From the NCBI RefSeq assembly GCF_020172665.1, contig NZ_CP083985.1, positions 3,042,832 to 3,106,831 on the forward strand: 64,000 nt of DNA. Direction: 5' to 3'. Source of the stretch: [Mycobacterium] zoologicum. Its GTDB lineage: Bacteria > Actinomycetota > Actinomycetes > Mycobacteriales > Mycobacteriaceae. Under the pieces are notes generated by a model. The model saw nothing but the letters and a program-made list of their open reading frames with translations. It ran no database searches and had not been told where the DNA came from. The translations under genes and the position numbers were made by a program. Positions 40,965 through 43,150 of the stretch are shown here, in pieces (positions within the stretch are counted from its first letter, which is position 1; every line of letters starts with the position of its first letter).

Positions 40965-42440
40965 ATGACCACGATCAGCACCCCGCACTACCTCCTCGAC
41001 CAGGCCCGGCGCCGGTTCGTCCCGACGCTGAACACCATCCCCGGCCTGGGCCGGATCGAAAAGCGGTTGCTGAACGTGGATTGGCCGCAGAAGACGCTGG
41101 CCGACCCACCACCGGGCAGCGGCCTCAAGCCGGTGATGGGCGATTCGGGCCTTCCATTGCTGGGCCACATCATCGAGATGTTCCGGGGTGGACCGGACTT
41201 CTGCCTGCACCTCTACGAGAAGTACGGCCCGGTCTACCTGGCCGAGTCACCGATCCTGAGCTCGATCGTCGCGCTCGGGCCCGACGCCACCCAGACCATC
41301 TTCGCCAACAGGAACAAGGACTACTCCACCACCGGCTGGATCCCGGTCATCGGGCCGTTCTTCAACCGCGGGCTGATGCTGCTCGACTTCGAGGAGCACC
41401 TGGGGCACAAGCGGATTCTGCAGGGCGCGTTCACCCGGCCGCGTTTGGCCAGCTACGTCGAGGACATGGACAAGGTGGCCACCGCGCTGGTGGCCGACTG
41501 GCCCACCGACGACGCCCGATTCCTGTTCCATCCGGCAGCCAAGGAACTGACGCTGGACGTGGCCTCGGTGGTCTTCATGGGCCACGACCTGGGCGCCGAC
41601 CACCGCCAGCTGGCCAAGGTCAACCACGCCTTCGAGCAGACCATCCGCGCCGGCGGCGCACTGGTGCGGACCGCGTTGCCGCCGTTCAAGTGGTGGCAGG
41701 GCATGCAGGGCCGCAAGGTGCTCGAGGAGTACTTCTACGCCCGCGTCGCCGAACGCCGCAAGGTCGAGGGCACCGACATGCTGACGGTGTTGTGCCACAC
41801 CGCCGACGAGGACGGCAACACCTTCAGCGACGAAGACATCGTCAACCACATGATCTTCTTGATGATGGCCGCGCACGACACCACGACGTCAACGTTGACC
41901 AGCATGGTGTACAACCTGGCCGCCAACCCGCTTTGGCAGGACCGGGCCCGCGAAGAATCGGATCGGCACGGCGACGGGCCGCTGGACATCGAGTCGCTGG
42001 AGAAGCTGGAAACCCTGGACCTGGTGATGGACGAGTCCCTGCGACTGGTCACCCCGCTGGGTTTCAACATGCGTCAAGCCGTGCGTGACACCGACCTGCT
42101 GGGGCATTACATTCCGGCCGAAAGCTACGTGATCACCTGGCCGGGCATGAACCACTGGCTGCCGGAGATCTACACCAATCCAAGGCAATTCGACCCGGAA
42201 CGCTTCCTGGAGCCGCGTGCCGAACACAAGAAGCACCGCTACGCGTTCGCGCCGTTCGGCGGCGGCGCGCACAAGTGCATCGGGATGAACTACGGCCGCC
42301 TCGAGGTCAAAACCGTCCTGCACCGGATGCTGCGCAGCTACCGCTTCGAACTGGCCCACCCGGGCTACCAGCCCCGGTGGGACTACGCCGGCATGCCGAT
42401 CCCGATGGACGGCATGCCGATCGTGCTGCGCCGGCTGTAA
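40965..42440 (+). CDS. cyp136: cytochrome P450 CYP136
   Basis: A 491-residue P450. The I-helix is AAHDTTTST (about 303), ExxR is DESLRL (about 352) and the haem loop is FGGGAHKCIG (Cys about 433). The N-terminal region LLDQARRRFVPTLNTIPGLG and the total length are those of mycobacterial CYP136, and the neighbouring SDR and TetR genes are the same as around M. tuberculosis cyp136 (Rv3059). Natural substrate unknown; sterol-like or terpenoid compounds are likely for this long class. Confidence 0.93.
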   Translation: MTTISTPHYLLDQARRRFVPTLNTIPGLGRIEKRLLNVDWPQKTLADPPPGSGLKPVMGDSGLPLLGHIIEMFRGGPDFCLHLYEKYGPVYLAESPILSSIVALGPDATQTIFANRNKDYSTTGWIPVIGPFFNRGLMLLDFEEHLGHKRILQGAFTRPRLASYVEDMDKVATALVADWPTDDARFLFHPAAKELTLDVASVVFMGHDLGADHRQLAKVNHAFEQTIRAGGALVRTALPPFKWWQGMQGRKVLEEYFYARVAERRKVEGTDMLTVLCHTADEDGNTFSDEDIVNHMIFLMMAAHDTTTSTLTSMVYNLAANPLWQDRAREESDRHGDGPLDIESLEKLETLDLVMDESLRLVTPLGFNMRQAVRDTDLLGHYIPAESYVITWPGMNHWLPEIYTNPRQFDPERFLEPRAEHKKHRYAFAPFGGGAHKCIGMNYGRLEVKTVLHRMLRSYRFELAHPGYQPRWDYAGMPIPMDGMPIVLRRL

Positions 42441-42488: not shown

Positions 42489-42956
42489 TCACACCGCCGT
42501 CAGCAGCCGATTCACACAGGTGACGACGGCATCCACGGCCGACGCCCCGGCGTCGGGCGCGAAACCCACCGCCCAGGCCGTAGAGCGACCATTGGAACCG
42601 TGGATGAATGTCGCTGTCTCGGCGCCACAGGCAAGCTGGTGAAATCCTAGGATTTCCAACCTGATTCCACGTTCGTACAGCATCGCGGTGAGTGCGCCCA
42701 GCGGGCCGTGCGCCGCTGCCGTGCAGGTACCGGTTCGGTCTCCGATGGAGATCGTCGCCTGATAGGTGCGGCCCTGTATCCCCAGCCGGGCAGCGGGCCG
42801 GTCGGAATCCAGGCAGCGCCACCGACCCAGCCGCAACGGACCGGAGCAGCGACCGTAGGTGGCCACGAAGCCTTCCCGGGTGAGCTGGGCGGCTGGGTCG
42901 CGCAGCTCACGCGGGAGTCGGGTGTCGAATTGGTCTGCGAAGGATGTACTGGTCAT
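42489..42956 (-). CDS. stand-alone LeuA (2-isopropylmalate synthase) regulatory-domain protein
   Basis: A 155-residue soluble protein with no catalytic TIM barrel. Residues 70-155 follow the allosteric domain of LeuA-type synthases: GDRTGTCTAAAHGPLGALTAML, GIRLEILGFHQLACGAETATF, STAWAVGFAPDAGASAVDAVVTCVNRLL; compare the LeuA ending in which a WGVG-type strand is followed by a helix and a final VNRA-like segment. That domain binds leucine. Here it could bind a branched-chain amino acid and act in trans on LeuA, or dimerise alone. A valine-rich leader peptide and foldable RNA precede it. Family identity is by pattern only. Confidence 0.65.
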   Translation of the reverse strand: MTSTSFADQFDTRLPRELRDPAAQLTREGFVATYGRCSGPLRLGRWRCLDSDRPAARLGIQGRTYQATISIGDRTGTCTAAAHGPLGALTAMLYERGIRLEILGFHQLACGAETATFIHGSNGRSTAWAVGFAPDAGASAVDAVVTCVNRLLTAV

Positions 42957-42993
42957 GTTGCGGTCTTTTCTGCTCGAAGAGAGCGACCGACGG

Positions 42994-43061
42994 GTAGTAG
43001 CCTCCGACCCACAGCGGGGGGTCGGTCTGGATCAGACCCCGCTGCGGGTGCCGGCTACTAC
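42994..43061 (-). promoter_or_regulatory. candidate amino-acid attenuator RNA
   Basis: On the minus-strand transcript GTAGTAGCC (43061-43053, inside the leader's Val codons) pairs perfectly with GGCTACTAC (43002-42994). Between them CAGCGGGG (43044-43037) pairs with CCCCGCTG (43019-43012), GGTCTG/CAGACC form a small hairpin around the leader stop codon, and CCGACCC/GGGTCGG (43025-43004) form an alternative stem. Some of these pairings exclude each other, the hallmark of ribosome-dependent attenuation. No U-tract is seen, so the outcome may be translational or a Rho-type stop. Confidence 0.6.
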
Positions 43062-43076
43062 GACTAGGTGACGCAT
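43032..43076 (-). CDS. valine-rich leader peptide of the attenuator
   Basis: A 14-codon open frame, MRHLVVVAGTRSGV then TGA. Leu-Val-Val-Val are consecutive (CTA GTC GTA GTA), and these codons lie in the outer strand of the RNA structure. The Leu codon is the rare CTA. Leader peptides with runs of Leu/Val/Ile codons precede branched-chain biosynthesis genes (ilvB, leuA) in actinobacteria. The ribosome site is weak. Confidence 0.65.
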   Translation of the reverse strand: MRHLVVVAGTRSGV

Positions 43077-43120
43077 GATGTCACCCAGGCTAGTGACGTG
43101 TCCGCCGGAGGTGCAAGCCA

Positions 43121-43150
43121 TTTATGCACTGGTATCGAGATCGATATCAA
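43121..43150 (-). promoter_or_regulatory. candidate promoter for the attenuator transcript
   Basis: On the minus strand TTGATA (43150-43145) and CATAAA (43126-43121) are separated by 18 bases and resemble SigA -35 and -10 boxes. A start about 7 bases downstream would put the leader peptide AUG some 35-40 bases into the RNA. The -35 box overlaps the last codons of the ThDP-enzyme gene. Confidence 0.5.

Follow-up and report, generated by a model that had tools for sequence, protein, structure and literature searches.

Within a 64,000-nucleotide stretch of the [Mycobacterium] zoologicum genome (contig NZ_CP083985.1, positions 3,042,832 to 3,106,831; hereafter the window, whose coordinates we use unless stated otherwise), a short gene on the minus strand is almost certainly descended from leuA, the gene for 2-isopropylmalate synthase. 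This gene, hereafter the orphan, is a leuA paralogue of old standing in mycobacteria: it has lost the catalytic barrel and retained subdomain II, the regulatory domain and the RNA switch at its 5′ end. In the orphan's copy of that switch, the run of leucine codons in the leader peptide is replaced by valine (GTA) codons. The combination of a valine-coded switch and a regulatory-only copy of LeuA suggests a means of balancing the production of valine and that of leucine against each other. An initial annotation of this DNA had proposed a detached allosteric module of LeuA behind a valine-codon leader. Our computation of descent, anatomy, conservation, codon swap and promoter box confirmed the observation and supported the interpretation in part, the detached module standing as a reading. 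That annotation had missed the descent of the RNA from the LEU element of leuA, the leaderless or nearly leaderless start, the pseudoknot GACCGAC:GTCGGTC and the lack of a detected terminator. The parts of the locus are as follows; percentages give the share of alignment cells that are paired.

42489-42956, minus strand: orphan LeuA-type protein of 155 residues, corresponding to subdomain II and the regulatory (allosteric, dimerisation) domain of LeuA, without the catalytic barrel
42961-42965, minus strand: GACCG at the ribosome-binding site, which competes for pairing with GTCGGTC (95.3%, 43 loci)
42985-42991, minus strand: pseudoknot strand GTCGGTC, which can pair instead with GACCG at the ribosome-binding site; present in 108/108 loci
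42994-43002, minus strand: 3′ arm of stem P1, GGCTACTAC, 37 nucleotides ahead of the gene start
43007-43019, minus strand: 3′ arm of stem P2, CCCCGCTGTGGGT, with two pairs changed on both sides relative to leuA
43021-43027, minus strand: pseudoknot strand GACCGAC, in the loop of P2 and four bases past the leader stop codon (97.0%)
43032-43076, minus strand: leader peptide MRHLVVVAGTRSGV with stop codon TGA; tandem GTA valine codons at 43061-43056
43037-43049, minus strand: 5′ arm of stem P2, ACCCGCAGCGGGG (98.9%)
43053-43061, minus strand: 5′ arm of stem P1, GTAGTAGCC, mostly valine codons
43087-43092, minus strand: -10 box TAGCCT (TANNNT), ending 10 nucleotides before the leader ATG
43111-43116, minus strand: likely -35 box TTGCAC, 18 nucleotides from the -10 box, located by eye in the window and 15 Mycolicibacter loci

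The 155-codon open reading frame (ORF) is present in the ORF list of the window, and several lines of evidence bear out the likeness of its product to the leucine-binding domain of LeuA. TIGR00970 matches residues 56-151 at 2e-6, a score far under the cut-off of that full-length model; BLASTP against the LeuA of the same genome gives 1e-10; profile-profile comparison of orphan and LeuA returns a probability of 96.6%; and M. tuberculosis LeuA fills the top eight Foldseek rows and the top four VIA rows obtained with the predicted orphan model. Profile matches to the LeuA domain are thus found with TIGR00970, in the search of the genus and by profile-profile comparison, though the window copy scores 16.9 bits against the Pfam family LeuA_dimer (PF08502), under its gathering cut-off of 24.9. 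The same family matches 22 of 35 relatives at E ≤ 0.01, with a best value of 1.8e-5. A search of solved structures with the orphan as a single sequence did not retrieve LeuA; with the orphan profile LeuA was retrieved at 2.6e-4. The alignment spans LeuA residues 435-643 and includes no catalytic TIM barrel of 2-isopropylmalate synthase, and the predicted model adopts the LeuA regulatory fold. Among 14 orthologues, differences at first, second and third codon positions are 0.132, 0.103 and 0.383, indicating selection on the orphan at the protein level, and 27 columns are invariant across 35 diverse members. Many database copies of the orphan carry the public name 'homocitrate synthase', which misleads because there is no catalytic barrel.

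Judged by homology, the RNA ahead of the orphan is a derived copy of leuA's LEU element. When the 124-base orphan leader was searched against its own genome, it retrieved itself and then the leuA leader (G000:C1:4108123-4108163, E 3.8e-5). We tried a covariance model made from orphan leaders alone on 30 leuA loci out of 44, and it recognized 28 at E < 1e-6; the two weak cases (L147 and L149) belong to other families. A joint model of both leader types found two elements in 48 of the 54 orphan-bearing genomes, three in four genomes and one in two drafts (G048 and G052); among six genomes without the orphan, four had one element, G003 none and G025 two. The pattern recurred in 15 genomes of a second set (11 new): two elements in each of the 10 that carry the orphan, one in each of the five that do not. 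Descent from leuA also explains a point raised in the initial annotation, namely that attenuation, which normally controls enzymes, should stand ahead of a regulator.

Eleven of 12 further elements inspected lie ahead of leuA or a second leuA-like gene. The remaining one is a decayed third Val-type copy (L175:2084-2172; G002:C1:964383-964471, minus strand) in which GCG replaces the start codon; it is followed by a short ORF, at which no LeuA-type protein was recognized. Second leuA-like genes with a LEU element of their own occur in three genomes (L176, L177 and L178 in G021, G024 and G049), with leaders MTRTLLLSRRGGA, MTCALVLSRRGGA and MTRVLLLSRRGGA; the frame of the second gene in L177 is shorter. 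In Rfam, the sole match to the orphan leader is a weak microRNA hit below the gathering score (18.6 of 90 bits, E 0.31), and no family matched the leuA leader of the same genome (L111:1098-1184), though the LEU element was described in 2005.

The exchange of codons is consistent across loci. All 37 leuA leader peptides printed have leucine at codons 5-7 of 13, typically as VQRVLLLGRRDGV; these came from 44 leuA loci (L127, L141, L145, which is a 100-base dummy, L147, L149, L158 and L163 were missed), and our codon figures rest on them rather than on 35 loci whose selection pattern had itself demanded CT runs. Orphan leaders instead contain two consecutive valines in 106/108 loci, so that the valine-codon leader of the initial annotation proves to be conserved in mycobacteria; the other two, L054 and L056, keep a single GTA. 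Leaving aside the start codon and the final three codons of these leaders, GTA accounts for 214 of 230 valine codons, compared with 5 of 223 in five genes of the window. At least one leucine codon, at variable position, occurs in 103/108 leaders, so leucine may contribute: Val (GTA) is the constant signal of the leader, and a leucine part may exist beside it.

The window leader has the 14 residues originally read, from ATG at 43076-43074 to TGA at 43034-43032. Leader starts were assigned as the first ATG or GTG at 13, 14, 15, 16 or 18 codons, a rule on which the length and promoter-box counts depend. By this rule 56 leaders have 13 codons, 24 have 14, five have 15, 22 have 16 and one has 18, and GTG (89) outnumbers ATG (19) as the start codon. 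The leader pattern caught 108 of 110 loci; L003 and L011 were missed and then read by eye, so that the RNA is present in 110/110. These loci include the window (L002) and are not all distinct species (L001 and L032 look alike).

A TANNNT box ends 6-10 nucleotides ahead of the leader start in 108/108 loci (two at 6, 64 at 7, 25 at 8, nine at 9 and eight at 10), so close that the leader transcript is predicted to be leaderless or nearly so. The promoter pair suggested originally, TTGATA-18-CATAAA, does exist as letters at 43150-43121. We reject it as the promoter, since it is TANNNT (TAGCCT, 43092-43087) whose distance from the leader start is conserved.

The leader RNA is strongly folded and conserved. 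It folds far better than shuffled sequences (z -4.41; 0/200 as good), and across 20 loci nucleotide identity is 92.8% in the core from the valine codons to GTCGGTC, 75.5% in the gene and 72.5% in the DNA further upstream. As first noticed from the window sequence, the valine-codon strand GTAGTAGCC is a perfect complement of GGCTACTAC about 50 bases further on, and the proposal of mutually exclusive stems is likewise supported. An alignment of 43 orphan leaders (the window plus 42 loci from a deduplicated 44, with L048 and L076 dropped for a misplaced gene start) forms the proposed pairs in 95.5% of cells. When 30 orphan and 15 leuA leaders were aligned jointly, 96.8% of cells pair and four pairs are changed on both sides, in 44 cells; 0/500 shuffles reached as high a value for cells, score or percentage paired, and in 15 rows the outermost pair of P2 does not form. 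One pseudoknot pair is A-U in the orphan and G-C in leuA, and in L054 a changed valine codon is accompanied by a matching change in the 3′ arm that preserves pairing. For covariation in the stems, a check called for at the outset, the outcome is mixed: nothing above shuffles within the orphan family, and these four pairs once leuA leaders are added.

A consensus scan of the leader region detected no intrinsic terminator. Control of translation is therefore likelier than classical transcription attenuation. We consider expression of the orphan to be very probably under the control of its leader.

The orphan was found in 54/60 genomes of the genus (its own included) and, at E ≤ 0.001, in 0/40 genomes of other families in the order, where the four matches obtained were LeuA frames of 591-625 residues. 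Six genus genomes have no match (G003, G015, G025, G029, G032 and G044), two of them incomplete (G003 at 72% and G025 at 80%). Scanning named genomes gave 137 loci, of which 80 were kept, all titled mycobacteria or Mycobacteriaceae. Among 396 genomes from a larger set of the genus, the best match to a 61-residue piece of M. tuberculosis LeuA was 93%, so the M. tuberculosis complex is not among the genomes drawn; the best-scoring of them (G145) is without the orphan. Within the stretches examined, a homologue of the window's P450 lies downstream of the orphan, on the opposite strand and not necessarily as the next gene, in 80/80 loci, which fits inheritance at one place. Duplication of a leuA unit made up of switch and regulatory domain, followed by retuning, is the better explanation of the locus, which occurs in most of the genus genomes sampled.

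In the window, the P450 gene, which we take to be CYP136, is convergent with the orphan (40965-42440, plus strand). An upstream pyruvate-oxidase-like gene was rejected as part of the unit; a homologue occurs in 21/80 loci only (up to 3 kb upstream examined). In G029, a one-contig genome with no orphan match and one LEU element, LeuA has an internal repeat in the regulatory domain (L186).

We propose a mechanism that rests on the geometry of these parts, from which we infer the direction of switching, the stalling and the effect on LeuA. Transcription would begin on the leader start codon or immediately ahead of it, letting a ribosome load at once. If the leader were untranslated, P1 would stack on P2, leaving the loop strand GACCGAC out of reach of GTCGGTC: the two stems would form one long rod, some 20 pairs in length, that keeps GTCGGTC (at the foot) apart from GACCGAC (at the tip), and the pseudoknot should therefore not close. 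GTCGGTC would then pair with the GACCG at the ribosome-binding site, and expression would be off. With plentiful valyl-tRNA, the ribosome would reach the stop codon in the P2 loop and cover GACCGAC, GTCGGTC would mask the ribosome-binding site, and expression would again be off. With valyl-tRNA in short supply, a ribosome stalled on GTA-GTA would block P1, P2 and the pseudoknot GACCGAC:GTCGGTC could form, and the freed ribosome-binding site would turn expression on. This scheme accounts for the retention of all four pairings, the position of the stop codon and the valine codons, and predicts expression under valine shortage, an induction we regard as somewhat more probable than not. In the computed folds, the probability of pairing between GTCGGTC and the ribosome-binding site exceeds 0.5 in 70/80 loci with a ribosome at the stop codon and in 49/80 as free RNA, in a folding program that handles no pseudoknots.

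Once made, the orphan protein could pair with LeuA through their shared dimerisation fold, restrain it and thereby spare 2-ketoisovalerate, the direct precursor of valine. LeuA condenses 2-ketoisovalerate with acetyl-CoA (PMC10464499). A brake on LeuA under valine shortage would fit, since LeuA consumes the valine precursor; the target may also be an unrelated one. That the orphan acts on LeuA we judge a little short of an even chance. Taken whole, a Val-tuned switch derived from leuA that governs a LeuA-restraining subunit is the best explanation we have, and we lean very slightly towards its being correct. More tentative, and in our estimate somewhat improbable, is the fuller scenario of a detached allosteric subunit of isopropylmalate synthase whose switch was retuned from leucine to valine, so that valine shortage yields a LeuA brake and 2-ketoisovalerate is sent to valine.

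A number of our observations weigh against these proposals, and they bear on two alternatives. The orphan protein could be a free-standing sensor or buffer of an amino acid (leucine, valine or a keto acid) whose target is something other than LeuA, such as another enzyme or regulator, with the RNA working as we propose; we think this unlikely, but a serious contender. The orphan gene lies far from leuA, the gene downstream in all 80 loci is the P450 homologue rather than leuA, and nothing ties the orphan protein directly to LeuA. LeuA residue Y554, which we take to line the leucine pocket, has phenylalanine as its counterpart (orphan F105) in 35/35 members. The leucine pocket of LeuA is capped by a loop (PMC11057210), and this loop falls within the stretch that is four residues shorter in the orphan (two gaps of two in the alignments). 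The shortened loop stretch and the substitution mean that the orphan's ligand may be other than leucine. In favour of LeuA as the partner, the switch is leuA-like in type, and subdomain II, the connection between regulatory domain and barrel in LeuA, is part of the retained module.

Somewhat less likely still, the RNA could be a protein- or ligand-binding element with no ribosome-stall switch, the leader ORF merely loading ribosomes. Seliverstov et al. argue for a bound protein at LEU elements because codon mutants did not fit, citing S. coelicolor work whose leuA leader mutations were at odds with classical attenuation (PMC1262725). The near-invariance of the core would also suit such an element. 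Within the orphan family, covariation is not above that of shuffles (377/500 reached the score), because the RNA varies too little; in the joint alignment, 188 of 500 shuffles gave at least as many pairs and 187 at least as many pair types, and of the four doubly changed pairs, three (two in P2, one in the pseudoknot) split the paralogues as a block and so represent few events. P1, the putative codon-sensing stem, is the least well kept, with its inner eight pairs formed in 90.2% of cells and its outer pair in 72.2%. L054 and L056 have lost one valine codon and kept the stem core, so pairing may matter more than codons. The computed masking is mild: across 80 loci the ribosome-binding site is unpaired at 0.39 with a ribosome at the stop codon, 0.48 with GTCGGTC sequestered and 0.42 in a random-segment control, and it is more open with GTCGGTC sequestered in 67/80. 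G025 has two elements and no orphan, both elements lying ahead of leuA copies. Against a pure binding element stand the paired valines in 106/108 leaders, the valine run in place of the leucine run in the copy and the rarity of GTA otherwise. That the orphan is a functionless, decaying remnant of a leuA duplication, as the 6/60 same-genus genomes without a match and the one decayed extra element (L175) might hint, is highly improbable given the excess of third-codon differences among 14 orthologues and the 27 invariant columns.

Regulatory subunits with a gene separate from that of the catalytic partner have precedents in IlvN and IlvH, and descent from an enzyme has one in HisZ. HisZ is a separate regulatory subunit (PMC9734150), and the orphan resembles these proteins as a regulatory module apart from its enzyme, with a putative LeuA interaction. 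It likewise has the fold and sequence of the PF08502 allosteric domain, with subdomain II, and differs in being a stand-alone gene with a shortened loop and a window copy under the Pfam cut-off.

On the RNA side, the orphan leader shares with the LEU element of actinobacterial leuA a short leader peptide, a stop codon in the P2 loop and no terminator (PMC1262725). It also shares sequence and structure homology to leuA leaders, a start adjoining a TANNNT box (by eye for leuA) and a pseudoknot between the loop and a downstream strand, recognized here by complementarity (97.0% of cells paired). A leaderless transcript without a typical intrinsic terminator is reported for the S. lividans leuA leader (PMC8079986), in line with the failure to find one here. 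The orphan leader departs from the LEU element in its valine run, in a codon stem that pairs with GGCTACTAC where LEU regulatory codons pair with the Shine-Dalgarno box of the gene, and in standing upstream of a barrel-less paralogue rather than leuA. Leucine codons and leuA are the subject of the accessible portion of Seliverstov et al. (2005), where 'valine' occurs once, for ilvB (PMC1262725). The ilvB1 leader of M. tuberculosis offers a second comparison: according to a 2026 study, this upstream ORF contains 'LVVI' with a GUA regulatory codon and answers branched-chain amino acids, and ilvB1NC rises after an IlvB1 inhibitor (PMC13236596). That attenuator differs in controlling biosynthetic enzymes and in having a transcription terminator, of which none was found at the orphan.

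Each part of the locus is thus of a known kind, and the combination and the codon retuning were not met in the literature searched. No paper was recognized there as dealing with a LeuA domain that stands alone or with a LEU element of the Val type, most subscription journals lying outside that search. In the orphan leader, codon replacement following a gene duplication would have shifted the amino-acid specificity of a natural switch, and one genome still carries both versions for comparison. The orphan leader gives the LEU element a natural mutant pair of the same architecture and different codons. We know of no separate regulatory subunit of isopropylmalate synthase; if our reading is true, the orphan would be the first known to us. 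It also makes testable how the cell splits 2-ketoisovalerate among valine, leucine and pantothenate.
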